This document shows, in pieces, positions 45,511 through 64,000 of a DNA stretch of 64,000 bases; the first letter of the stretch is position 1; the number at the start of each line of letters is the position of its first letter. Origin of the DNA: Chrysophaeum taylorii (lineage: Eukaryota > Sar > Pelagophyceae > Pelagomonadales > Pelagomonadaceae); assembly GCA_029834535.1 (NCBI GenBank), contig JAQMWT010000390.1, forward strand, positions 186,001 to 250,000, in the 5' to 3' direction. The translations under genes and the position numbers were made by a program. Below the pieces are notes generated by a model that worked only from the letters and a program-made list of their open reading frames with translations, made no database searches and had not been told where the DNA came from.

Positions 45511-45588
45511 ATTTATTTGTAGGACTTAATTTAATAAAAAAGGTCCCTATTGATTGCAAGCAGCAGCACTTTATACATATCTTGGAAG

Positions 45589-48222
45589 ATGGGGGAGTTC
45601 CCGCCCGTCGACCGGTCGACTTTCGACAGCGAGGCGAGCCTCGGGGACCGGCCGCTGAGCCCGGGGTCCATCTTGCTGTCGGATGACGACGACGAGGACG
45701 AGGATAGGAAAAGGGAATTGGTGTGGCCACGGCCGCGCAGGACATCGATCACCTACAGCCACCAAAGCTCTGGGTGCTGCGAGGAGGTGGCGTCGCAGCA
45801 CGCGGAGCGGCGGCGGGCTTCGGTGACGACGACGGAAGGCTCGACGGCCGCGTATCCTCGTTTATATCTCGGCATGTACACGCTATGCCGCGCGACGCAG
45901 ATGATGGAGCGAGGCGAGGAGCCTCCCCCGACGGCGCTGGTCGAGGCGAGCGGCGTGAACCATTTGTGCCGCGTGTGCGCGACCGGCGGGCGAAGGGATG
46001 TGCTCGCGCACGGGCCGTTGTGGCCCGACGCCGGCGGACCAATGGCCCGCCAAGCCCTCGAGTCCCTGGCTTACAAGCCGGTTTTGCTGGTGGATAGCGT
46101 CGCGACGTGGGGCCGGTGCGCGAGTCTCCTGGATAAGGAAGAAGCGCTCGTCGCGGCGATTCTTCTGAGCGAGGACGCGGCGAAAGAGCCGGGCATCGAC
46201 CAAGCCGCTCGGAACGGAAACATCCCCGTCGTCCTCGTGCAGCCGTGCGACGTGCCTTTTTTTTCGCACGAGTCGCCCGCGTGGGTGTCGATCCGGCTCG
46301 ACTCGAAGCGCAAACTGCTGGAGCGGCGCGCAAAATTCCTCGCGAGACTCGAGGAAGCGCGGGCGCTGCGGGACGTGTGCGGCTTCGAGGCCGAGTTCGA
46401 GGCGCGCCTCGACAAGGCGATGGAGTCGGCGGCCGCGAAGGAATTTCTCGCCGCGTGCCACCGCGGCCACGTCGAGGCGATCGAGATCCTCGAGCAGGCG
46501 GGCGTCGACGCGCGCAAGGTCCGCGACAAGCGCGGACGGTCGGGGCTCATGCTGGCCGCCGCGTGCGGGCGGGTGAAAATTGTCAGGGCGCTGGGGGGCG
46601 AGGGGTGGTGGCTCCACCACCGGCGCGATCGGACCGCGACCTACGAGGAGCTCGAGGAGGCTCGCGAGGAGCAGGTCGACTACGTCAACGACGCCGACAA
46701 CGAGGGCCGGACGGCCGTGATGCACGCCGTGCTACGGAACGAGGTGCGCGCCTTGGACGCGCTCCTGACGACGACGACAACGAGGGCGTCGTGCCTCGCC
46801 AACCCGCGCCTCGCCGACTCGCAGAACGTGACGCCCCTCGAGCGCGCGATCAAGCGCGGCTTTTCGGAAGCGGCGATCCAGCTGCTCGCGCGCGGCGCGT
46901 GGGAAGACGACCACGGGATCCGGCCGCGCGCGGCGAGGTCGGCCTACCGCACGGCCGTCGACAAGGGCATGGACGACGTCGTGCGCGCTCTATACGCGGC
47001 GCAGGTCGAGGCGGCCGCCGACGGCGACTCGGGCGAGCTTCCGGGGTTCGCGTTGTTGTACGCGATTCGCGAGAAAAAAATGGGCTGCGTCGACGCGCTC
47101 CTCGACTCTGGAATTCGCCGATCGAGCACGCGCCAGGCCGTCGTCAACTTGTGCGACGCCAACTATCGCGACCCCGACGACGGCCGCACCCCTTTAATCG
47201 AAGCTGCCGTCCTCGGCGACGCGGTGCTCGTCAAAAAGCTCGCGCGCTACGTCTCGGGCTGGCCCGACCCGTGGTTTGGCGGCGAGCGACTCGTCGACCT
47301 CGACTGCGCCGACGCCGAGGGGTTGACGGCGCTCATGCACGCCGCCGCGCGCGGCTTCGACGACGTGTCGCGCGCCTTGTGCCGCGATAACGACCACCGC
47401 CTCGAGACGAACAAAAAAAGCGTCGCCGAGGGACGCACGGCGCTCCACTTCGCCGCGCACTCGGACGTCGAGCAGCCCGCCATCGTCCGAGACCTCTGCG
47501 TCTACGCCAAGGCGGACGTCGACGCCCGCGACAATTGGGATCAGACGCCGCTCCACCTCGGCGCCGACCGCAAGAATGCCGCCGTCGTCAAGGAGCTTCT
47601 CATGCAAAACGCCAACGTCTACGCGCTCGACGCCGCCGGGAATACGCCGCTCCATCTCGCCGCCCGCGTCGGAGCCAAGTCTGTTGTGGCTATTTTGCTC
47701 CAGAACGGCGCGCGTCTCGACGCTCCGAATTACTATTGGGACACGCCGCTCCACGTCGCGATTCTCCTGCATCACACGATCGACCTCAACTTGGACTTGA
47801 GGAGGAGGACGACAACGCGTTGTCGTTATCCTCGCGACGAGATGGTCGAAGACGAGGAGGAGGACCTCCTCTTCAACGCGTCGTCTTCGTCGCGAGTGTC
47901 CCCGACGACGACGGCGTCTCCGTCTCCCACCACCACCTCGTCCGCGACGCCGGACGAGCGAAAGCGCGAGAAGGCCGTCGAGAAGCTGGAGCGCGGGCAG
48001 TATACGGGGGTCGTCGAGCAGCTGCTGCAGCACAAGGCCAACCTCAAGTTGGCGAACCGCGACGGCCTCGAGGCTTTCTCCGACCCGCTCATGCAGCAGT
48101 ACTTTTCGCTCAAAGAGCACGCGCTGAACCGCCTCGTCGACCGCCGCAAGACCTGGATGCGCATCCTCCGGCTCAAGACGGCGTGCTGGCGATGCCTTCG
48201 GCACTTTCTTCTTCTTCTTCGA

Positions 48223-48257
<35 letters not shown>

Positions 48258-51200
48258 TTTGCCGCCAGGCGAAGGCGGCGCCCCCCATAGGAAGAACAAG
48301 AATACGAGTCATGGGTTGGCTTTCTCCTCGACGACGACGACGACGACGACGACGGAAACGCGGCGCCGCCGGAGCGGGACGAGTGGCACCACGTTTACCG
48401 CCAGCAGCAGCCCGTTCTCCGAGCGCAGCTACAGGCACCACCTGATTTCGCGCGCCGCGAGCGTCATGAACGTGGGCGGCGGCGTGCTGGTGCGCGAGAC
48501 CACCCGGACGACGACCGCGGACGACGACGTCCACGGCGGCTCGGACCTGGGTCAGATCCGCGTGCAGCGCGCCGTCGGCGCCGTCTGGCAACGCGAGGTG
48601 GTGCCGTCGATGCGGCGGGGACTGCTGCTTTCGTTCGCGAACGCGTGCTGCCTCGCGGCCCTCGCGACGCGCGTCGCGAGCGGCGGGTCGTCCGAAGCCC
48701 CGTCGCAGAGCGAGCTCTCGACGGGGCTTCGGAGGCTCTTCGAGGAGGAAGGTCCCGCGGCCGCCAGATCGTCTGCTGCAATCGGGTTCGAGGAAATCAA
48801 GACAAAGGAGGACTGGTACGAGTTCATGCGCACGACCTTTTATCTGGCGTTGAAGACGGGCGAAGCCCCGCACCAGTGGCGCGGGGGAGCATCTTTCCCG
48901 CTCGACCAGCCGATTGGCCAGACGACGCCGGAAAACCGGACCTTCCTCTCCGAGTTCGGGCTCCTCGTGGGCGCCGTGCGCGTGCAGCAGTGGCGGTCCG
49001 ACCCGACGCTCTGCGAAGTTCCCTCGCGCTACGACGGGACAGTGCGCTACTGCTACCGGTCGTCGACGACGCAGCTTTTCTCGAGGTCGCCGTACTCTGT
49101 CGGGATCAAACACGAAGACGAAAACGACGAGGTTGATGTCTCTGCGGCGTTTCGGTGGCGGAGCGGGCGCGAGCTGCGAAGGGCGGGCGTCTCGCACCGG
49201 CTCCGCCTGGGTTACTTCCCGGCGGGCGGGTTCGCGCTGGACCTCGCCGCGACGAGCGTCTCGCCGTCGGTGTTCGCCAAGCTCGAAAGTTTCGGATGGA
49301 TCGACGCCGCGACCCGCGCCGTCGCCGTCGAGCTGACGGCGTACTCGGCAAACACAAACCTATTTTACCACGCCACGCTCGGTCTCGAGTTTCCGGCGGC
49401 GGGGGGCGGCGGAGTTCCGCGTTTTTCTTTGGATGTCGCGCGACTCTTTCCGTACGATCGTCCCGACGGCGTGCTCGCGTTGGAAGGGGTGTGCGGGCTC
49501 TTCGCCCTCTGGGTGTTGTGGCGCCTCGTCGAGCGGGTGAAGAACGACTTCTTGTTCGTCAATCCCTGGACGGCGATGGACCTGGCGTTGACGGTGCTGT
49601 TCGGCGCCTACGTTGGCACGCGACTCGGCCAGCTCGCGCTCGCGGCGCGCGTCGACGACTGGACGACCCGGGACGCGGCAGTCTCCGTCGCGCGGCCCAT
49701 GGCTGCTGCGAAAAGGAATATCGTTTTCTTGTCCGCGCTCTGCTGGGTCGCGTGGTTCCGAGTCGTCGAGTTCTTGCGGATATGGAAGCGCGCGGCGATC
49801 CTCGTCTTGGACATCACCGCGATGACGGGCGACCTCGCCGTCTTCGTGGTTCTGCTCGGCGTCGTCTGCATGGCCTTCGCCTCTGCCTCCCACGTCCTCC
49901 GCGCGTGGTACGACGCCAAGTACGCGACCGCCTTGAACTCGATGGGCTACGCGATGGGCGCCGCCTTTGGCGAAATTAGTTACTCGGAACTTTTGACTTC
50001 GGACGACGAGGAGACCGTCTCCAAGGGTCTCGCCCTCCTCTACGTCCTGATCGTGCTCTTGTTGTTGATGAACATGTTGGTGGCCGTCCTCATCGACCAG
50101 AAAACGACGCGCTCGCACGTCGAGAAGCGCTGGTGCTTGATCCGCCTCGAGATGATCCGCGCGCGCCGCGCGAAATCATCTTCGCGCCGGCGCCCGCGGC
50201 TCGAGAACGACCGGGACGTCGCGCTCCTCCGCAAGCTCGAGCAGCGCGTCCACGAGGAGATGCGCGGCAGTCCAATAACAACAACAACAACAACAACAAC
50301 AACAAAAACAAAAGCAAGAGGACCCGGAGACGATGTGGCGGTTGCGCCGCCATCATATCGCGACGACGACTACGACTACGACGACGAGGACCTCGAGAGG
50401 CTCCACCGCGACTGCCTCGGCTTGTGCGACCGCGTCTTGCGCTCCGAGGAGCCGACGACGACGACGACGCCGGAGTTCGCGCGGCGCGCCAAGTTTTTGT
50501 ACCCCGAGCTGACCTTCTTCGAGGACCCCGAGGAGCTCGACGCGAAGATCCGGAGTTTCCGGCTCGTCGCCGTCGCGTGCGGCCAAGACTGGGAAGGCTT
50601 CCGGAAATACTCGGACCTCGAGGAGGAGGACTTGAAATTTATCACCGAAAATCTCAAGGTTTCGAGCGCGCGAGAGCTCGACGCCGCGTTCGCGACCCTC
50701 GCCATCGCCAACCTCGGCAAGATCCGCGGCTTCGCGGACTACGTCGAAACGCAGGCCCACGCGCGATCGGTCGACCACGACGTTACGGTCGCGAACGCGC
50801 TCGTCGCCTGCCCGCATCTCCTCAAGAGCTACGAGCGCCTCGCGAGGTGCGACCCCGAGGCCGCCGCAGCCGTCAAGCACGCGGCCTGCGGCTTTAATCT
50901 GGGACAGTTCGTTCAGGGCGAGAGCGTGGCGGCGTCGCTGCGGACCGCCGCCGAGGCCTCGCCCTTCGCGCTTCGCCTCGCGCTCCTCGACCGCCTTTCG
51001 CGCATCCCGTCCTGCTTCGAAAGGCGCGTCTTTCAAGACGTAAGGGAGGCCTGCGAGGCTCTTCTCCTCCAATTGCGCGACGTCCACCAAATATACGACG
51101 CCTATTTTTCCGAGCGCGCCCGTCGCCTCCGAGTTCCGCGGGACATCGTCCGACTCGCGGCGATGTGCCGCGTCTCCACGAAAGCAGAAGCGCGACCTCT

Positions 51201-51750
51201 CCTCGCCGCCTTCGACGCGCTCCACCGCGAGGACCGCGACCTCCTGCGCTCGGAGCTTGCCAAAACCGGAACAGACGACTGGGCCATCCTCGTCCGGTAC
51301 GCTCCGGGCTTTCTCGCCGCCGTCGCCAAACTCGAACCCTCCTCGACGACGCCGCGAGAGGAAGGACAAGTTGCGGCGTACGCCTGCGCGCTCCAGACCC
51401 TCGTCCAGCTCTACGTCAAGGCCAGGCGACTCGTCGCGGACCATTCGGGCGCGGGCGTCTACACGCTCTCCGTCCGCGACCTCGAGATTCTGGCGACCTG
51501 CTTGAACGAGACCCGCGGCACCGTCGCCGACTTCCGCGAGAAGGCCGCCTTCACGATCGAACACACGGGGAACGAGGGTTACGTCACCCTCAAAAACCAC
51601 CGCAGCCTCTACCGCGCGCGGAGCCTCAGAACCCGCCTCGAAAAGCGCCGCGACTTTGCCGCCGCCAACAACAGGCCCGCCTCGCCCGTCAGGCGGCGGC
51701 GCCGCCAGCGGCCTCCTCCTCCTCCTCCTCCTCCTCCTCCTCGTTATTAA
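45589..51750 (+). CDS. Giant ankyrin-repeat / polycystin (PKD2-like TRPP) cation channel
   Basis: A single 2053-residue exon. Residues 1-280 are an unrecognised N-terminal region with an alpha/beta segment (KPVLLVDSVATWGRC, IPVVLVQPCDVPFF). Residues about 285-725 are ankyrin repeats. After a low-complexity linker (Ser run from AGC repeats near 48230) comes a first membrane helix (LLLSFANACCLAALA, about 1010). Then a polycystin extracellular domain follows (NRTFLSEFGLLVGAVRV; GWIDAATRAVAVELTAYSAN near 1237; LEFPAAGGGGVP). Five more helices S2-S6 are at about 1297, 1329, 1377, 1413 and 1479, with a pore segment GYAMGAAFGEISYSELL near 1450. The C-terminal about 550 residues are helical, partly coiled coil, with no known domain. 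PKD2 channels pass Ca2+ and other cations, often in cilia. Ankyrin repeats are typical of TRPA/TRPC/TRPV, not TRPP, so the fusion is unusual. The start is the ATG at 45589. Confidence 0.9.
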
Positions 51751-55198: not shown

Positions 55199-57184
55199 TC
55201 AAACGTCGATGTCCGTAAGGGCGAAGTTGGTGGACTTGGCGGTAATGTAACTTTTTCTTTCGGCGGCGCTGTCGCCCATGAGGAGGGAGATGATGCGGTC
55301 GGCCTGGGCCGCGTCCTGGACGTCGACGCGCTGTAATTTTCTTCGGGCGGGGTCCATGGTCGTCTCCCACAACTGCGCCGGCATCATCTCGCCGAGCCCC
55401 TTGAAGCGCTGGACGGGCGCGTTGGGCGTCTTCTCGAGCTGGGCGGCGAGATCCTCGTCGGACCACGAGTAGACGTTTTTGCCGATCTTGTAGAGGGGCG
55501 GGCAGGCGATGTAGACGTGGCCGTCGTGCACGAGATCTCGCTGGTATCGATAAAAAAACGTTAGGATGAGGGCCCGGATGTGAGCGCCGTCGACGTCGGC
55601 ATCGGTCATGATGACGATTCTGTCGTAGCGCAGTTTGTAGTCTTCCCCCTTGACCCCCAACCCGAGGGCCGCCATGAGGGCCTGGAGCTCGGCATTTTTG
55701 TATATCTTGTCGGTCGCGCACTTCTCGACGTTGAGGATCTTGCCCCGCAAAGGAAGAATGGCCTGGGTCGCGCGGTCCCTGCCTTGCTTCGCCGAGCCCG
55801 CGGCCGAGTCGCCCTCGACAATAAAGATCTCTGCGTCGGACGAAGATTTGCTCGAACAGTCGGCCAGCTTGCCCGGCAAAACGGTGCTCGCGAGGAGCGT
55901 CTTGCGTCGGACCAAATCTCTCGCGCTCTTGGCGGCGGCCGCGGCGCGCTGCGCAGCCTGGGCTTTGTCGAGAACAGCAGCGAGGGCCTTGGGTTGCCAC
56001 TCGAACAACTTCGAGACCGCCTCCCCCACCACCGCGTCGACAATAGGACGCACGCCCGGCGAGCCCAGCCTCGACTTGGTCTGGCCCTCGAACTCGGGTT
56101 CGGGCACGCGAACGACCAACACGGCCGTCAAACCCTCTCTGACGTACTCTCCGGGGATGTTTGTTTGGAGCTTGCCCGCCTTCTTCGCCGCGCTGTTGAT
56201 GCCGCGCGTCAGGGTCGCCCGCAGTCCTTCGACGTGCGTGCCACCGTCAGCCGTTCGGATTCCGTTCGCAAAGCTCACCACGACGTCCGTGAACTGGTCG
56301 GCGCTCCAGCGCAGCGCGCACGAGACGTCGACGTCGTTTCGCGACCCCGTTGCCACGAACCCCTCGAAGGCCGGATGGAGCAGACTCTTTCCCGCGCACA
56401 GCGAATCCGCGAATTCCGAAATTCCGCCGTCGTGCCGGAACTCGCGGCGGCCGCGGCTTTGGCCGCCGCTCCTTTCGTCGGAAAGTACGAGCGTCGCGCC
56501 CGCGTTCAAGTATGCCAGCTCCTCGAGGCGCGCGGCCACCACCTCGGCGTCGAACTCTGTCGACTCGAAGATCAGCGGGTCGGGCGAAAACGTCACCCTC
56601 GTACCACCACCACCCTCCTCGGACGAAAAATCGCCGCATTTTTCCAAGCTCGACGCGGGATTGCCCGCCGCGAACCTCATCCGGAACCGCTCGGCGTCGC
56701 GCATTACCTCCACTTCCATGTCCCGGGACAAGGCGTTCACCACCGACAAACCCACGCCGTGGAGCCCCCCCGAGACCCGGTACCCCGAATTCGATCCGCC
56801 GAACTTTCCCCCCGCGTGCAGCACGCACAGCACCGTCTCCAACGCGCTCTTTCCCGTCTGCGGGTGCGTGTCGCACGGGATGCCCCGCCCGTCGTCCGAC
56901 ACGCTGCAGCTCCCGTTACCGTGGAGCGTCACGTCCACCTTCGACGCGTGCCCGCCCATCACCTCGTCCATCGCGTTGTCGAGGATCTCGAAAATAAGGT
57001 GGTGGAGCCCGCGCGGCCCCGTCGACCCGATGTACATCCCCGGTCGCTTCCGGACGGCTTCCAGCCCCTCCAGCACCGTGATCTGCCCGGCCCCGTACGC
57101 AGCCGCCGTCGCCGTCGTCGTCGTCGTCTTGGTCGTCGCCGACAAGGCCCGCGACAACCCGAGCCGCAGCAAAATGAGCGCCAT
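55199..57184 (-). CDS. gyrB: DNA gyrase subunit B, organellar
   Basis: A 661-residue GyrB. It supplies the ATPase of the bacterial-type topoisomerase that supercoils plastid or mitochondrial DNA. GHKL ATPase: FEILDNAMDE (Glu66, Asn70), DDGRGIP, GLHGVGLSVVNALS. TOPRIM: EGDSAAGSAKQGRDR and MTDADVDGAHIR (metal-binding DxDxD). The GyrB C-terminal box is QRFKGLGEMMPAQLW. The shorter length than E. coli GyrB (804) reflects absence of the insert specific to that group. The N-terminus MALILLRLGLSRALSATT is a typical amphipathic organelle presequence. The start is the ATG at 57184, 35 bp downstream of the truD stop on the same strand. Confidence 0.95.
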   Translation of the reverse strand: MALILLRLGLSRALSATTKTTTTTATAAAYGAGQITVLEGLEAVRKRPGMYIGSTGPRGLHHLIFEILDNAMDEVMGGHASKVDVTLHGNGSCSVSDDGRGIPCDTHPQTGKSALETVLCVLHAGGKFGGSNSGYRVSGGLHGVGLSVVNALSRDMEVEVMRDAERFRMRFAAGNPASSLEKCGDFSSEEGGGGTRVTFSPDPLIFESTEFDAEVVAARLEELAYLNAGATLVLSDERSGGQSRGRREFRHDGGISEFADSLCAGKSLLHPAFEGFVATGSRNDVDVSCALRWSADQFTDVVVSFANGIRTADGGTHVEGLRATLTRGINSAAKKAGKLQTNIPGEYVREGLTAVLVVRVPEPEFEGQTKSRLGSPGVRPIVDAVVGEAVSKLFEWQPKALAAVLDKAQAAQRAAAAAKSARDLVRRKTLLASTVLPGKLADCSSKSSSDAEIFIVEGDSAAGSAKQGRDRATQAILPLRGKILNVEKCATDKIYKNAELQALMAALGLGVKGEDYKLRYDRIVIMTDADVDGAHIRALILTFFYRYQRDLVHDGHVYIACPPLYKIGKNVYSWSDEDLAAQLEKTPNAPVQRFKGLGEMMPAQLWETTMDPARRKLQRVDVQDAAQADRIISLLMGDSAAERKSYITAKSTNFALTDIDV

Positions 57185-57219
57185 TCTTCTTCTTCTTAAG
57201 CTTACCACCACCACTACCA

Positions 57220-58266
57220 CTACTTTGTTCTTCTTGTTGTTTCTGCTTCTTCTTCAACTTGATGATGATTTTCGAAGGCGGGGCACTTGACGAACTCGCG
57301 CATGATCGAGGTGGCGTAGGCGCCGGGCTCGAGGTCGAAGACAAAGCGGAGGCCTTCCGGGACTTCCTGGATCTCCATGTTGCGGGGCCAGACGCGCGCC
57401 TTCCGCCGCGACCCGGGAAAGGGGAACCGCCCGAGGATGAGATTTTGGGGCAGCACCTCAGCTTCGTCGGGCCGGGGCTCGAGGCGGTTCCCGAACAAGG
57501 GACCGTCCTCGGCAGTGCCGTTTCCCACCACCTGGCGCGCCAGCCAGACGTTAAAGAGCATCGAAGAGAAAGCGTCGACCGCGAACGCGTGATCTGGGTT
57601 CTTCAATCTTAACTTCTTCTCGCCCGAAACCAGCCGTGCCCCTCGAATCGCCGTCTTCGCCCCCCTCCCAAACCGCTGCTCCCCAAAGTAATTCGGCGCC
57701 CCCACCTCCCCCAACCGACGCGCGATGTCGTTCGCTTTTTCCATATCCTTCTCGCACCCTCGCAACAAGATCTCGAACCGGTTCGCCGCGTGCGTCCCCC
57801 GGCGCAGCTTGCACCGCTTCCGGCACATCTCGAGGGGCTCGAGACCGCGAACAGCCTCTTCCGACACAGAACACCCGGGAACAGAAAACCACTGCGTCGC
57901 GACCGCTATTTTGTCCTTGAGTCCCGAGACCCCCACGTCCCGGAAATCCCCGAGCCCCAGCCGCTTCTGGATCGCCGTCTGCGCCTCGCGCGTCGTCTCT
58001 CCGCGCCGCCGCAGCCGGAACCACCAGTGAAAATTGTCGCGGTACCGAATCTCGTCTTCGGCGACATCGAGCACCTCGGTGACCACAAAATCTTCACACC
58101 GCTCCTTCACCCTGCCGCCGAGACCCTCGCACCTTGATGTCGCGTACGGCAACGAGTCGAACACGATCATGTACTCGAATCCATCGGGACACACCTTCAA
58201 CCTCTTCGACTCGCGACCATCCGACGACGTCAACAACACCTCATCGTCGTCTGAGCGATGCGTCAT
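57220..58266 (-). CDS. truD: TruD/Pus7-type tRNA pseudouridine synthase
   Basis: A 348-residue protein that converts uridine to pseudouridine in tRNA. The TruD hallmark GLKDKIAVATQW carries the catalytic aspartate (about 118); NYFGEQRFG and the terminal FDLEPGAYATSIMREF are also family signatures. Length equals bacterial TruD (about 350) rather than the long eukaryotic Pus7 (about 600), although the family spans both. The target is probably U13 in tRNA, by analogy. The start is the ATG at 58266 (MTHRSDDDE); no organelle presequence is evident. Confidence 0.9.
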   Translation of the reverse strand: MTHRSDDDEVLLTSSDGRESKRLKVCPDGFEYMIVFDSLPYATSRCEGLGGRVKERCEDFVVTEVLDVAEDEIRYRDNFHWWFRLRRRGETTREAQTAIQKRLGLGDFRDVGVSGLKDKIAVATQWFSVPGCSVSEEAVRGLEPLEMCRKRCKLRRGTHAANRFEILLRGCEKDMEKANDIARRLGEVGAPNYFGEQRFGRGAKTAIRGARLVSGEKKLRLKNPDHAFAVDAFSSMLFNVWLARQVVGNGTAEDGPLFGNRLEPRPDEAEVLPQNLILGRFPFPGSRRKARVWPRNMEIQEVPEGLRFVFDLEPGAYATSIMREFVKCPAFENHHQVEEEAETTRRTK

Positions 58267-58725
58267 CCAAAAGGAACGAAACCTACTACTACTAACCCCC
58301 CCGCGTGGGGTGCGTCCGTCCAGGGGGTCCAAGGCAACTGTGGCGCAAGGAGAATTTTAGGGGCTACCTGGCGTGCCTCCGAATCCTGGCTCGCCGCTCG
58401 CGTCCGTGCCCTGGGTGGAGCCACTGGACGAGGTTGGCCGTTCTCCCGCCACACGACCACAAACAACTTCCGTGCCTGGTCCTCACAACTTGAGGATCGG
58501 CTGTTGCTTTATGATCAAGGATATATCGAAAAACAGAAATCAGGGTGACGCATGCCACGGAAAAGGAAGATGATGTCATAGAAAAAAACTGACATCATCA
58601 GACCGGAGTAGGGTGCCCCTGATAAGGGGGGGGGGGGGGGTAGAAGAGGGGTAAGCCTTATTAGGAGGCGGGAGTTGCCGCCACAGGACTCCCATGGTAA
58701 GAATTCGAGCTGCCCCCGAGAGGTG
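58267..58725. other. Intergenic interval; 3' end and candidate LTR of element 1
   Basis: It contains a 10-bp inverted repeat GATGATGTCA/TGACATCATC (58569-58578, 58590-58599, 11-nt spacer), a G run at 58625-58640 and the LTR-like segment 58633-58683 resembling 31243-31330. No gene. Confidence 0.4.
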
Positions 58726-59442
58726 CTAGCGCGAGGAGCGCGGCTTCGCCTTACGAGCATCTCGTGAACGAATCTTCTGGTAAACGCGGGTGATGATGAC
58801 CGGTTCAGGAACTCGGCCACTGCGTAAAATAAACTTGGGTATCAACACATCAATCTCGTGCGGAGCGAAATCCGTGACACAAGGAGTTGTGTTGGAGGAA
58901 GCTCGGGACTTGTTGGTGAAACTTCGACCTTCAACGTCCTTGAACTCGGGCTTGAGCTTGCGGTGCGAAAGGTGAGAGGTCGGCTTGAAATAAGCGACAT
59001 CATCGTTCGGACCCAAATCGGAATGGAAATGCACAGCAACACGATCATTTTGGTAATCGCAAGGCTCGTAAACTTCAGCAACATAAATCTTCTTGCGCCA
59101 ATCGGAGCGCTTCCGGTCGGGAATCCGGAAAACAACAAACTTACCGTGCTGATAATCATCACGGAAGGTTTCTTCGGGTTTGCGGATGGCTTGATCAACG
59201 ATCGGAGGTACCATCACAGGCGTGATCTGACTAACATGAACACGTCGTTCTTCGGGCGGAGAGTCGAGAGACCCAATCCTATAGGTGACCGGGGAAAGGC
59301 GTTCCTTGATAATAAACGGCCCTCGCCATTCCGGTCGAAATTTGTTCTGAAGGAAAGGAATATAGAGCAAAACGTGCGATCCTTCCTTGTATTCAACATC
59401 GACATGATCGACATTGTAGGCCAATCGTTATTTCTTCAAAGC
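58726..59442 (-). pseudogene. C-terminal (GPF) module of element 1 integrase
   Basis: NKFRPEWRGPFIIKERLSPV followed by TYRIG is the GPF/Y module of Ty3/gypsy integrases; RRVHVSQITPVMVPP follows. The last about 150 residues (GKFVVFRIPDRKRSDWRKKI, YVAEVYEP, VAVHFHSD) look like a small beta-barrel similar to what chromodomain or SH3-like tails offer, but I cannot assign it. A TAA near 59431 lies just upstream. Confidence 0.8.
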
Positions 59443-59768
59443 TTTATCACGAGCGAGGGCATCCGCCCTCCCGGCGTAGGTTGGCACCTATTCGCCTCCC
59501 CGGCGGGCCGGTTGGCAGCCGAAACGTTCGCAGTGGGACGGGGTATGGCCGGGGGGCGAAGACGGAAGGTTATCGGCGAGTTGGTTGTCAGTCACATCGC
59601 GGTCTCCTCGTCGCATTGCGACAAGCTTGATGGTCACTCTCCGCCGACCGACCTTTCGGCGCTCCTCGTCTACAGGCCCGTGATTCCGGACTGGCTCCTG
59701 TCGGTCCGGCCTGGCTCCCATGCTCGGGAGAGGTCTGAAGTTAGTTAGTTAGTTAGTTTATCACGAGC
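59443..59768 (+). mobile_element. 302-bp SINE-like insertion with 12-bp target-site duplication
   Basis: Insert 59455-59756 lies between direct repeats TTTATCACGAGC (59443-59454 and 59757-59768), inside the integrase gene. Its left end is a perfect hairpin GAGGGC-ATCC-GCCCTC; its right end is a (TTAG)4 tail. A truncated relative lacking the left part is at 41596-41672. No coding capacity. A short simple-sequence tail, 5' truncation and a target duplication together indicate non-LTR retroposition. No clear tRNA-like A/B boxes were found. Confidence 0.85.
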
Positions 59769-60444
59769 CTCGCGGACGATCTTCGTATAATACTTCAATC
59801 GTTCACGAGTCTCGGCGACTGCATCAGAGCGAGTCTTCGGGAATAATCGTGTATCAAAGTCCATGAGCGTGTAGTCGGTCGGCAGCATCGGCTGACGGTT
59901 CAGGCGCAGCATAAAGGGAGAAATCTGCGTGCCTGGAATAAACTTGCGGTTGTAGCAGAACGCAATATAATGAGCAAAGTCAGGCCAATCCGTAATGTTC
60001 CGGCCCTGAAGGCAAGCACGGAGGAAGGCCTTGATAAATCGGTTGACAAGCTCAGCCGGGTTCGACTGGGCATGATAGGGAATCGTAGTTTGGTGTCGTG
60101 TGTTAAAGAGATGGCAAAACTCGCGCATCAACTTGTTCACGAACTCTTTACCGTTGTCGGTACGAATCATCTGGGGCAAGTAGCCCTTAAGGAGGATGTT
60201 AATGACAAAAGACTCGAGGACAGACTCAGCAGTCTTATCGTTCAAAACATCCAGAATCAACAAATGCGAGAACGGATCAAAAAATACTAGAAGATACGTC
60301 TCGGGACCAGCGCTGGGCAAGGGTCCAAATAAATCCATGCAAAGAACAGCACCATCACCATCTTAGACGGGCTGCTGCAAGAGTCCAGCTCGTTTCGGCT
60401 CAGGCGTACGAGCTTTCTGGCAAACTAAACATTCAGCAATGAAG
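59757..60444 (-). pseudogene. Integrase catalytic core of element 1
   Basis: ECLVCQKARTPEPKRAGLL completes the zinc site. A TAA near 60365 follows, then the rve core: MDLFGPLPSAG (first Asp), IRTDNGKEFVNKLM (second Asp) and QSNPAELVNRFIKAFL (Glu). It would insert the DNA copy into the host genome. The frame ends inside the SINE-like insertion. Confidence 0.9.
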
Positions 60445-60446
60445 AC

Positions 60447-61502
60447 TCAAACTTCGTTCGACATGTGAGGCCACCAAAATCGTTCTTGGATAGCCTGGAC
60501 AGTACTGTGACGTCCCATATGACCACCGTTAACCGGAGTGTAATGGTAGAGTCGAATAATGCGCTTGCGCAACGTAGCAGGTGCAACAATCATCGGGTGC
60601 AAATCAGCAGAAATGCGGTAAAGAACGTCTTTAACGACTTCGAATCGTTCGTTCGCTCGGGAACGTCGCGGCGTCTGACCTTGGGCCATTCGGTAGCGAA
60701 TATCCTCGCAAGTAGCATCAGATTCTTGCTCACGTGCGATCTCAGCGAGCGTCATATTATCGGGTATCTTATCGATATAATCTTTGTAAGCGGCTGCGTC
60801 CTTGACGATCTGTGGCTCATCGCGCGCACGGTTCTTCCGACGTTGTCTCGTAGCTTGAGACGTAGCCAATTTCATCGGATCCTTTTCACGATCTTCTTCC
60901 TCGTCTTCCGGCAGTTCGGTCGTAATAAACGACATTATGAAGTGGCAACCGGAGGCGGGAATTCCTCGGTCATCCACAGGTCGGGGAAGCTCTTGGAACA
61001 CCAAATAAGCGTGGTTCAAAGGTTCTCCAAACTCGTCAGTCTCGATGACATGATCTATCGGGTTGCGGGAGAGACGGTCAGGGATACTCATTCCCGGTGA
61101 CTTTCCCGGCTTGTAACCAAGTTCAGGGTCAAAATTGGCGAGACGCATCGCCCACCAAGCAAGCTGTCCAGATGAGTGCGTCGCCTTACGTAAAAACGTC
61201 AAATTTCGGTGATCGGTCTCCAAAACAGTACGGTGCCCTTCGATGTAGGCTCGAAAGTGCTCTAGAGAAAGTATAACTGCCAGCAGCTCTAGCCGACGGG
61301 GCTCGTAATTGCGCATCTCCTTCGGCACAGCTCGGCTCCAATATTCAATCACTCGTTCTTCTCGAGTCACTCTCCCGGCATCGTCCTTGACTTCGACAAT
61401 CTGGAAGAGATACGCTCCAAGTCCATCCTTGGAAGCATCGGATCTGAAAAGGCAGATCATAATCGGGGTGGTAGACTCCGCGGGAATCAACCAAAGCTTC
61501 AA
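60447..61502 (-). pseudogene. RNase H and integrase zinc-binding region of element 1
   Basis: RNase H: FRSDASKDGLGAYLFQ (first Asp), RRLELLAVILSLEHFRAY (Glu), LETDHRNLTFL (Asp); the catalytic acidic residues are present. A linker rich in Glu/Lys follows, then the integrase HHCC region (YHYTPVNGGHMGRHS, ERFWWPHM). The pair of frameshifts near 61548 and 61450 cancel each other. The TGA at 60447 interrupts the frame before the CxxC half. Confidence 0.9.
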
Positions 61503-61547
61503 TAATCGTATCCCAAACTTTCTGACACTCGGGCGTCCACTCGAACT

Positions 61548-62672
61548 TTACACCTTCGAGGCATAATGTCTCAGCGGTTCCACGATCTTCGAGTAGCCCT
61601 TCACATATCGCCGGCAGTAATTACTCATGCCGATGAAAGAGCCTATCTGGGTCTTCGGGGAAGTATTCGGTAAAGTACCTGGAATCGGCATCTTCTGCAG
61701 TGCTTCCAGCGTCTTCGGATTCGGCTTCAAACCTTCTGGGGTAGAAGTGTGTCCCAGAAATTCTATATCATCCTTGAGAAGGTGGAACTTCGCGGTTCGA
61801 CCGCTGTACCCTTTCTGTACCAAATGACACATCACTTCGATCAAAACTTGTAAATGTCGATGAAGATCGTCGGATCCCATCATAATATCGTCAACAAACG
61901 CAACCAAGTCTTGATACGTCAATTTCGAAAGGTCGCTCGCCATTTGCTTGCAGAAAAGAGCTCCGGCCGTCTTCACACGTAGAGGTAATCGCAAGAAACT
62001 ATGAGCGCCAAGTGGGCTAACCATCGTGACAGCATCCTGCGCTGCCGGATCCAGACGAAGGTTGTGGTATCCCCATCTAATATCGATGCATGTCCGCCAT
62101 CGTCTCATGGCGAGAAAAGCTAAAGCATCATCTTGTCGGATGTTCGGCCAACTGTCATTGACCAATTGATCGTTGAGCTGACGTAAGTCAACTGCAGCAC
62201 GGAACGCGTTTGACGTTCCAATCTCAGCTCCTTTTTTTGGAAGCATCAACACAGGAAAGCCCCAAGGTGAGTTGGCCGGACGAATGACTCCATCCCGGCA
62301 CCACTCGCTGATCTGCTTGCGGAGACAATCGAGCTTCGCAGGCGCCAATCGGTAGGGCGTCATCTTTATCGGTCGCGGATTCGCGTCTTTGAATCGTAGA
62401 GACACAGGAGGCGAGTCCACAGGTCTCATAATCGGGTCGAAAAAGGCCCAAGAATATTGCACACAGTGACGGAGCATCAGTTTCGCCTCGTCATCTAAGT
62501 GCGGATTGTCAGGAATTCCCAGCTCCTGCACAACCCTGTCAACTTCTTCCTTCGTAGGAACTTGAACTTTCATAGCCTCATTATCCTTGACATGCTCGGG
62601 GAGTTTGCGGCAGCGGTGCACCCTCGGCATCGCGCGGCGCATCTTTCCATGGCACATCGAACTTTTTCTCAT
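61548..62672 (-). pseudogene. Reverse transcriptase of element 1
   Basis: A 374-codon frame with VDSPPVSLRFKDANPRPIK, WGFPVLMLPKKG, AVDLRQLNDQL, IDIRWGYHNLRLD, FLRLPLRVKTAGALFCKQM and the catalytic FVDDIMMGS (61887-61898). It copies the RNA genome into DNA. The domain itself is complete; it is separated from the methyltransferase by a frame change near 62620, which could be decay or programmed frameshifting, and ends at a shift near 61548. Confidence 0.9.
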
Positions 62673-64000
62673 ATTTTAGTCTCACTTCCGGGTGGCTTTT
62701 GTTGATCCTCTCGCCTTTGACACGAACACTCGGCTCGCTCTTAATCTTCGGTTCCCGATTTTGCTCAGGATCTGGCGGAACGTCCAAATTTGGTCGTCGG
62801 GGGGGGGCAGCAGAAGAAGCATGAGACGCCCCCGGCTCATCTGTTGCAGGCGGAATCAACGGTACCTCTGGAGGTTTCCATTTAGTGCGATCTTGGAGAT
62901 CATCAGTCGACACCCATCTTACGACACGTGTGCGCGTGTTTAACAGCGGAACTTGTACGTGACGAAGGGTGGTTTCATCAATTTGCAAATAATAATCAAA
63001 CGGTCGGTCTGCAGGACTCAACGCCGACGGCAAAGCTTCGCCGCTCAGGTGAAAATCCTTGGTCACAGAGTTGTGCAGATCGAGTACTAATAAAGTCATC
63101 GTGTCTGGTGGCACGACGGACGCCAAGTGTTTCAACGAGGTCGTCCTGGAGAAGCCGGCCCAATCAAAATCAAGGGGCATCGTCAGCAACTCCGAAGTCA
63201 TTTTCGGATTCAGAGATCTGTAATCGGAACGGTGCGGTCCTACGCGAAGCGGGACACGCGTAACGGTATAAGCTGCGTATGTCGCGGCTCGTGATGATCC
63301 TAAATTGTTCATCTGAAGTAAATGTCGTTCGTCGGCGTAGCCAAGTGCTGCGGCGAACTCTTGCTGCATATTCTTGCAGGTCTTTGGAACTGCACGCAAA
63401 TGGAGCGGATGGCTGGAAACCAACAATCGCACGCGACAGCTCATCAAACTGGGAGTTGTGTTGTAAAAATTGACGACGTACACGTAAGGGTGCAAACGTG
63501 CAACGTAAGAAATAATCGAAGCCTCCTGCTCTATCAACCACATGAAGAAACCAGCCATCTTGCATAATTTCATCGTCCAGTGGGTAGCGGTGACTCCTTT
63601 CCCAACATCTCTGGAGGTTAAGTTGCACAGAGCGGAGTGTACGCAGGGTGGCGACGCGATACACATCGACGACGACCATTCTGCGTAGGGTAAATAAGAT
63701 TCGATCAACCGTAAGGTTGTAACATAGCGACCACGCAGTGTGTGCTGCACCACAGGAATATTCGGAAAGTTCTTGTGGTGGATCTGGTTGGCGGTGTCCG
63801 ACGCATCGAGTGCTAGCACGACTCGAAACGACGTCCCACATAATTCGTTGGCTCGTTGGAGACCTAAAGTACTGCCTCCGGCTCCACTGAACAGCATCAC
63901 CACCTTGCGATAAGTGATTGGAAGCCATTGAACCTTTTCGTATCGGCGGCGGATCCCCGCTTCGGTGATCTCGCGGCATTTCCTTTCATCTTCTTCCGAC
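62581..64000 (-). CDS. C5-cytosine DNA methyltransferase domain of element 1, with linker (partial)
   Basis: An open frame that enters from the window edge. Motif I is VVMLFSGAGGSTLGLQRA (SAM binding, near 63900), motif IV IASPPCVHSALC (catalytic Cys, near 63640), motif VI WLIEQEASI (Glu kept, the usual ENV is EQE), motif VIII SCRVRLLVSS, motif IX-like YRSLNPKMTSELLTMPLDF, and motif X-like LASVVPPDTM near 63110. The domain spans about 63920-63050 (about 290 residues), followed by a basic/acidic linker to 62581. All motifs occur in the canonical order, so catalysis is possible in principle. The target-recognition region between VIII and IX is short. Homologous domains sit in the two decayed elements at 23-31 kb. 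Confidence 0.85.
   Translation of the reverse strand, partial: SEEDERKCREITEAGIRRRYEKVQWLPITYRKVVMLFSGAGGSTLGLQRANELCGTSFRVVLALDASDTANQIHHKNFPNIPVVQHTLRGRYVTTLRLIESYLPYAEWSSSMCIASPPCVHSALCNLTSRDVGKGVTATHWTMKLCKMAGFFMWLIEQEASIISYVARLHPYVYVVNFYNTTPSLMSCRVRLLVSSHPLHLRAVPKTCKNMQQEFAAALGYADERHLLQMNNLGSSRAATYAAYTVTRVPLRVGPHRSDYRSLNPKMTSELLTMPLDFDWAGFSRTTSLKHLASVVPPDTMTLLVLDLHNSVTKDFHLSGEALPSALSPADRPFDYYLQIDETTLRHVQVPLLNTRTRVVRWVSTDDLQDRTKWKPPEVPLIPPATDEPGASHASSAAPPRRPNLDVPPDPEQNREPKIKSEPSVRVKGERINKSHPEVRLKYEKKFDVPWKDAPRDAEGAPLPQTPRACQG

Follow-up and report, generated by a model that had tools for sequence, protein, structure and literature searches.

Cytosine methylation usually silences transposons. 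Transposons that carry a methylating enzyme of their own are therefore a paradox, and in the literature read they have so far been reported for two host lineages. The described methyltransferase retrotransposons are SymbioLINE-Dnmt, SymbioDIRS-Dnmt3 and KnitGypsy-Dnmt3 (de Mendoza 2018, PMC5890265). Here we examine a further carrier from the alga Chrysophaeum taylorii, found in a stretch of 64,000 nucleotides (contig C390, positions 186001-250000; hereafter the window) of a 70.8-Mb assembly of 697 contigs. It is a Ty3/gypsy long terminal repeat (LTR) retrotransposon whose Pol polyprotein contains a C5-cytosine methyltransferase (MTase). Such an element had been proposed from the letters of the window alone (the original prediction), with a heterokont in mind as host and with precedents named in charophyte algae and dinoflagellates. 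The host is indeed a heterokont (Pelagophyceae, Ochrophyta, Stramenopiles), and the precedents are confirmed (PMC5890265).

Among the elements tested in yeast in that article, KnitGypsy-Dnmt3 from Klebsormidium nitens has the architecture nearest to the C. taylorii gypsy element. It also places a C5-MTase within the Pol open reading frame (ORF) of an LTR Gypsy element, and is likewise intronless, present in several copies and reported to be under purifying selection. It differs in its charophyte host, its Dnmt3-related MTase and the DIRS-like repeat layout given in the legend, as described in PMC5890265. The C. taylorii element lives in a heterokont and is bounded by simple LTRs, and the nearest matches of its MTase, all weak, are to bacterial, phage or DNMT2 enzymes. 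Symbiodinium resembles C. taylorii in having hundreds of C5-MTase retrotransposons and several carrier classes in one algal genome; its carriers are DIRS and LINE elements, those of C. taylorii Ty3/gypsy and Ty1/copia, and Symbiodinium Copia elements are stated to be without a DNMT domain (PMC5890265). A copia carrier in itself is perhaps not novel, since a 2025 paper (PMC12344493) mentions 'LTR Copia' DNMT3 elements, albeit in a single sentence on streptophytes and dinoflagellates that concerns the DNMT3 type and cites the 2018 paper, which says Gypsy. DIRS elements with a Dam-like N6A MTase also carry a DNA MTase, but an amino-MTase rather than a C5 enzyme (PMC5890265).

What is new relative to these systems is the heterokont host, an MTase with no established tie to DNMT3 or DNMT5, and the presence of carriers from two LTR superfamilies in one genome. 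Another heterokont is Ectocarpus. Its Sola1 element with ParB and an N4/N6 MTase is likewise MTase-bearing, but is a DNA transposon with an amino-MTase, not a C5 enzyme (PMC12477816). No report of a heterokont LTR retrotransposon with a C5-MTase was found in the open-licence PMC literature searched, and words starting with 'transpos' are absent from the main text of the article on the C. taylorii genome, which gives 71 Mbp in 702 contigs (PMC10366177). A heterokont case with two unrelated carriers would show that MTase capture recurs, and one 71-Mb genome offers three element clades, probably two captures, for testing the benefit.

We regard it as practically certain that Pol of this Ty3/gypsy family contains a C5-MTase between a protease-like region and the reverse transcriptase (RT), and that the family is high-copy and recently active. 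The element is a Ty3/gypsy LTR retrotransposon by its RT-RNase H-integrase order, LTRs, target duplication, tRNA primer site and similarity to Ty3; Ty3 Gag-Pol (7q5b, E 6.8e-66) is the nearest relative of an intact polyprotein among solved structures, a ranking that involves no RT tree. This part of the original prediction stands. The extent it gave, 58726-64000, takes in only the 3' half of the element, which lies on the minus strand, measures 10.8 kb and runs from the 3' LTR at window position 58339 to the end of the 5' LTR at C390:255140, beyond the window. Domains of the window copy were called by a Pfam scan of the minus strand over window positions 58726-63999. The features are as follows.

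58334..58338, no strand: target-site duplication GCAAC, 5 bp; its second copy lies outside the window at C390:255141-255145
58339..58685, minus strand: 3' LTR, 347 bp, with ends TGTGGCG...CGCCACA
C390:254797-255140, minus strand, outside the window: 5' LTR, 344 bp, 91% identical to the 3' LTR
58726..59424, minus strand: C-terminal part of the integrase and polyprotein tail; Integrase_p58_C at 26.6 bits, just below the cut-off of 27
59443..59768, no strand: insert of about 314 bp with 12-bp direct repeats TTTATCACGAGC, which breaks the integrase frame and is missing in the intact copy on contig C5
59745..60338, minus strand: integrase core (DDE); Pfam rve, 46.8 bits
60447..61502, minus strand: RNase H and integrase zinc-binding domain; RT_RNaseH 80 bits, Integrase_H2C2 44.5 bits
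61548..62672, minus strand: RT (FVDD); RVT_1, in a frame shifted relative to the MTase frame in this copy
62581..63999 (core 63010-63999), minus strand: C5-MTase domain and linker to the RT; Pfam DNA_methylase

By these Pfam matches the order of Pol from 5' to 3' is MTase, RT, RNase H, H2C2, integrase core and a GPY/F-like tail, the last being our own reading of WRGPF in the C-terminal part of the integrase (GPF at residue 2871 of the intact ORF). The open frame of the MTase extends upstream past the window and comprises 657 residues overall. The region upstream of it, without a Pfam match, we take to be protease-like from our reading of the window element and the intact C5 copy. Two bases after the 5' LTR lies the primer-site sequence TGGTGGAGGATATG; a genome search for the tRNA 3'-end pattern fitting this sequence gave a single site, in a tRNA-Ala (AGC), against none for the reversed control.

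The best Pfam profile for the MTase domain of the window copy is that of the C5-MTases, DNA_methylase (PF00145; 28.0 bits, cut-off 22, E 1.9e-6). It matches all 12 MTase domains in alignment A1 of the window's clade (clade A), with a best E of 6.3e-7. Two PHROG families named DNA methyltransferase also support the assignment. Families of that name match every one of the five domains compared, with E values from 6.8e-7 to 3e-12 for the best family in each case, and are presumably C5 types; NCBIfam dcm matches weakly, below its cut-off. The motifs announced by the original prediction, I (LFSGAGG), IV (SPPC), VIII-like (RVR) and X-like (ASVVPP), are all present. In the list below, with residues numbered as in alignment A1, the motif names (I, IV, VI, VIII, IX, X) are our assignments from general knowledge.

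63874..63897, minus strand: motif I, MLFSGAGG, residues 35-42
63643..63654, minus strand: motif IV, SPPC, residues 116-119, with the catalytic Cys codon at 63643-63645; same in all 28 stop-free copies
63523..63531, minus strand: motif VI-like EQE, residues 157-159
63427..63435, minus strand: motif VIII-like RVR, residues 189-191
63256..63267, minus strand: TVTR, start of the motif IX block, residues 245-248
63106..63123, minus strand: motif X-like ASVVPP, residues 293-298; the sister clade has LGSMVPP, matching PF00145 positions 257/260-321

The same architecture is found across the family. Scoring 90 of 1,387 candidates for the gypsy MTase gave 90 matches, 76-100% identical, and scoring 110 of 1,463 for the gypsy RT gave 110 matches. 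From the 90 listed, the 29 best-scoring copies besides that of the window were retrieved with the sequence surrounding the MTase. The window copy is decayed, with LTRs 91% identical and a frame broken at the MTase-RT junction and again downstream; the claim that MTase and RT share one coding unit accordingly fails for this copy. It holds in all 29 other fetched copies, where the MTase and the start of the RT lie in a single frame (7 of them have a stop codon inside the MTase), and in the intact copy at C5:520422-529622, a single ORF of 3,067 residues with MTase, RT, RNase H and integrase. Listed MTases stand directly upstream of 47 of the 110 listed RT places, and at 24 of these MTase and RT overlap by the 11 bases typical of the fused frame; 12 of the other 63 were sampled, and all have the MTase upstream, mostly broken over frames. 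The domain is thus kept in every copy inspected, the opposite of what had been named as fatal to the original prediction.

The family moved recently, as seen from the LTRs of the intact C5 copy (C5:520043-520378 and 529995-530330), which show no difference along 336 bases, from genome-wide LTR matches (all 40 scored of 484 candidates are 98-100% identical), and from the nearest pair among the fetched copies, which differs by 0.77% over 4.4 kb. The contig pairs C25/C521 and C10/C297 give equal-score matches at near-identical coordinates and are probably duplicated or haplotype contigs, so copy counts are slightly inflated. By our own reading, the gag region of the window copy (L009:1872-5084) includes a capsid-like stretch that is missing from the intact C5 copy (L065:623-9823), which may depend on gag from other copies.

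A deeper sister clade (clade B) carries a related MTase. In four RT places of another subfamily, chosen for long frames, it occupies the same Pol slot each time; identity to the window's clade is 40-42% in the MTase, 62-63% at the RT start and 27-28% in the upstream region. All four clade B places fetched have PF00145 (29.4-35.9 bits) and RVT_1 above their cut-offs within a single frame; PF00145 matches two stretches per protein, a fuller match than in clade A. The best stretch shown covers profile positions 7-71 in L066 (frame of 1,398 residues, 29.4 bits) and 257/260-321 in L067 (1,666 residues, 31.9 bits) and L068 (1,600 residues, 31.2 bits). Clade B has both ends of a C5-MTase with a motif-bearing middle between them, and matches at least 133 stretches genome-wide. 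The blocks FxG.GG, ALD, SP-C, EQE, R-RLL, TVTR and S.VP are invariant over both clades; in 12 aligned clade A and B sequences the catalytic Cys, the motif I glycines, the first Glu of EQE and R-x-R do not vary. Since a related MTase with these shared blocks sits in the same slot, its capture most likely predates the split of the two clades.

The MTase has also been maintained by selection. After 36 MTase copies were aligned and 8 with stops removed, 28 were used to estimate the ratio of nonsynonymous to synonymous substitution rates (dN/dS). Comparisons inside the main subfamily give a median of 0.207 (0.175 for the core, 253 pairs); those between subfamilies, where synonymous divergence is saturated, give 0.087 (0.050 for the core). 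Over the same 11 copies with a stop-free MTase and a full-length stop-free RT, the RT gives 0.130 and the MTase core 0.186, the MTase being slightly less constrained; the MTase-RT linker, at 0.275, is looser than the MTase. Clade B shows 0.07-0.09 between its subfamilies and 0.32-0.33 for near-identical pairs. The gypsy MTase is under purifying selection near that on the RT. MTase and RT distances correlate weakly over 29 copies, many of them broken (r 0.215, reached by 139 of 2,000 permutations), and strongly over the 11 stop-free copies (r 0.829, none of 5,000 permutations), a set picked after the weak 29-copy result.

A second carrier emerged from a genome search with PF00145, in which 123 of 474 candidates were scored and gave 57 places: one DNMT5-like gene, one DNMT2-like gene, 49 overlapping a copia-type MTase and 6 others. 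The two host gene names are our own reading of domain make-up; the DNMT5-like ORF (MTase plus SNF2) on contig C621 is 100% identical to CTAYLR_010750. A copia-type element at L011:2096-7951 has a single frame of 1,952 residues that includes the MTase, an integrase match and the RT.

Residue 82 of the L011 frame: protease-like DGGAS motif
Residues 349-475 of the L011 frame: PF00145, 32.1 bits
Residues 1016-1110 of the L011 frame: rve integrase match, 17.2 bits, below the cut-off of 32.6
Residues 1686-1933 of the L011 frame: RVT_2, 133 bits

With its integrase ahead of an RVT_2-type RT, this carrier is of Ty1/copia type; a search for solved relatives of its polyprotein gave none at E <= 0.01. 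Its MTase matches at least 128 stretches genome-wide (64-100% identical), has a dN/dS of 0.123 (6 copies), and retains PCQ and ENV in all seven aligned copies, with motif I altered; a stop-bearing copy outside the alignment, L007, has ENA. At L015:8738-10000 on contig C4 a gypsy-type MTase fragment adjoins a copia-type MTase element, perhaps a nested insertion.

Where did these domains come from? The copia and gypsy MTase profiles, built from shallow alignments, do not align to each other, which makes two separate captures in one genome likely, though not proven. Against the PDB the gypsy profiles find no significant match: one search gives DNMT2 at E 0.28-0.3, with unrelated GGA1 chains scoring equally, and a second gives bacterial cytosine MTases, and DNMT2 at E 1.1-1.2. 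No DNMT3 chain appears among these matches up to E 10, a range in which nothing reached significance. Descent of the gypsy MTase from the host DNMT5 is not supported (best DNMT5 4.7 bits, hhalign E 0.15), and SNF2, the hallmark of DNMT5, was not matched in the element ORFs scanned. The copia MTase profile alone finds bacterial cytosine MTases in the PDB at E 0.016-0.018. It scores 14.5 bits (E 1.1e-4; hhalign E 0.0033) against the DNMT5 set, so that a DNMT5 link is not excluded for it, and 34 bits against a phage protein; the two phage proteins compared with the copia and gypsy MTases had been chosen as matches, and their lead is biased accordingly.

Phage tblastn searches returned one and four weak records. 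A phage C5-MTase such as that of Aphanizomenon phage CL131 resembles the gypsy MTase in the motif I block and very weakly in the motif IX-X region, but is a stand-alone enzyme, unlike the Pol-embedded domain; the match covers 29% of the domain at 31% identity (E 0.01). No relative of either MTase was found in viral contigs, and none in prokaryote genomes, searched with gypsy profiles only. In the protein database, none of 4,771 candidates was a relative of the gypsy MTase at E <= 0.001 (clade A query, long proteins only) and none of 6,537 a relative of the copia MTase; all these negatives are weak, as the searches depend on short exact words and failed to return even the element proteins of the alga itself. 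Annotated proteomes may thus omit such elements. The comparisons lean weakly towards a prokaryote- or phage-like origin.

What could an MTase inside Pol be for? Our tentative proposal is that it methylates the element's own cDNA and thereby eases its spread. As a portion of Gag-Pol, the enzyme would be produced and enter the particle together with RT and integrase, and would methylate cytosines of the fresh double-stranded cDNA there or in the pre-integration complex. The incoming DNA would then bear a mark that the host chromatin machinery may read as self or as already silenced, which might reduce the cost of insertion or evade foreign-DNA sensing. The proposal draws on the position in Pol, the conserved residues, selection, recurrence and an analogy: when tested in yeast, some retrotransposon MTases (SymbioDIRS) carry out de novo CG methylation (PMC5890265). 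That elements of a second superfamily have a different C5-MTase behind a protease-like motif suggests an advantage common to both. More speculatively still, gypsy and copia elements may have independently captured different prokaryote- or phage-like C5-MTases into the same post-protease slot, both kept by selection. If so, the pressure would be strong and host-specific, for example a sensor of unmethylated incoming DNA, and self-methylation of cDNA would act as a passport, comparable to phage MTases that evade restriction.

Several observations weigh against an active MTase acting on its own cDNA. In clade A the PF00145 match spans motifs I-III only (profile 2-53), and it falls to 18.9 bits, under the cut-off of 22, when the whole protein of 3,067 residues is scanned. 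The canonical Q of motif IV and the N-V of motif VI are substituted (PPCV, EQE), so catalysis is not assured, and the first position of motif VIII (canonical QxRxR) is not Q in gypsy MTases. Two AlphaFold models are of low confidence (mean predicted local distance difference test, pLDDT, 35 and 37); VIA-align with the second returned CARF proteins, dehydrogenases and other Rossmann-like folds, with no C5-MTase among the 50 rows listed. The MTase domains of KnitGypsy and SymbioLINE were inactive in yeast, a result that its authors called inconclusive (PMC5890265).

Traces of methylation are also absent from clade A: CpG observed/expected is 1.27, while 5-kb bins of the window, of which the last contains 1.7 kb of the element, give 1.30. 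In the MTase columns, C>T changes at CpG are just 1.16 times as frequent as at other positions, and among singletons in some 4.4 kb there is no C>T excess at CG, CHG or CHH. This null is weak evidence because the whole window is not CpG-poor either, despite a DNMT5-like gene in the genome, and methylation would escape this method if the lineage repairs or tolerates it. Clade B (0.96, 4 loci) and the copia-type elements (1.02-1.05, 11 loci) lie below the window's 1.30, which fits methylation. CpG is also low (0.97) in the copia lineage L070, with no MTase similarity in the 4.2 kb fetched, which excluded its 5' part; the deficit is therefore not counted as self-methylation.

A different target for the enzyme is conceivable but unlikely: it might work in trans, modifying the genome or the defence loci of the host and so shifting the epigenome to the benefit of every copy. 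The 70.8-Mb genome has hundreds of matching stretches (at least 90, 128 and 133) that could supply the enzyme, and such action was considered for Symbiodinium (PMC5890265), yet a Pol-internal domain would be expected to act mainly within the particle and the window shows no CpG loss. We hold it improbable that the fold is catalytically dead and retained for nucleic-acid binding or particle structure. The non-canonical motifs VI and IV would fit, as would SPSC at motif IV in the clade B copy L069; the invariance of the catalytic Cys, motif I glycines, first motif VI Glu and R-x-R in gypsy elements, and of PCQ and ENV in the aligned copia-type copies, speaks for an enzyme. Methylation of RNA in the fashion of DNMT2, be it element RNA or primer tRNA, is more doubtful again: the primer site fits tRNA-Ala and DNMT2 chains are among the few, non-significant PDB matches, but GGA1 scores as well in one search, the resemblance to DNMT2 goes no further than motifs I-III, and the gypsy profiles give the host's DNMT2-like protein a score of only about 6 bits. 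Chance adjacency, an assembly artefact or a functionless passenger is scarcely credible, even with a frame-broken window copy, since MTase and RT are linked in every copy fetched for this purpose (29, 12 and 4), dN/dS is well below 1 and the MTase recurs in the sister clade at 40% identity; in-frame fusion in copies, LTRs and RT-linked MTases rule out chance, artefact and bacterial contamination alike.

Beside the element, a TruD-like ORF (57220-58332, minus strand) has its listed start a few bases from the 3' LTR and is followed by a GyrB gene (55199-57220, minus strand); the LTR could influence transcription of both. Elsewhere, contig C696 has eight RVT_1 matches, perhaps group II introns of an organelle contig, and window positions 45550-51750 (plus strand) hold an ORF of 2,066 residues that combines ankyrin repeats with polycystin and ion-channel domains.

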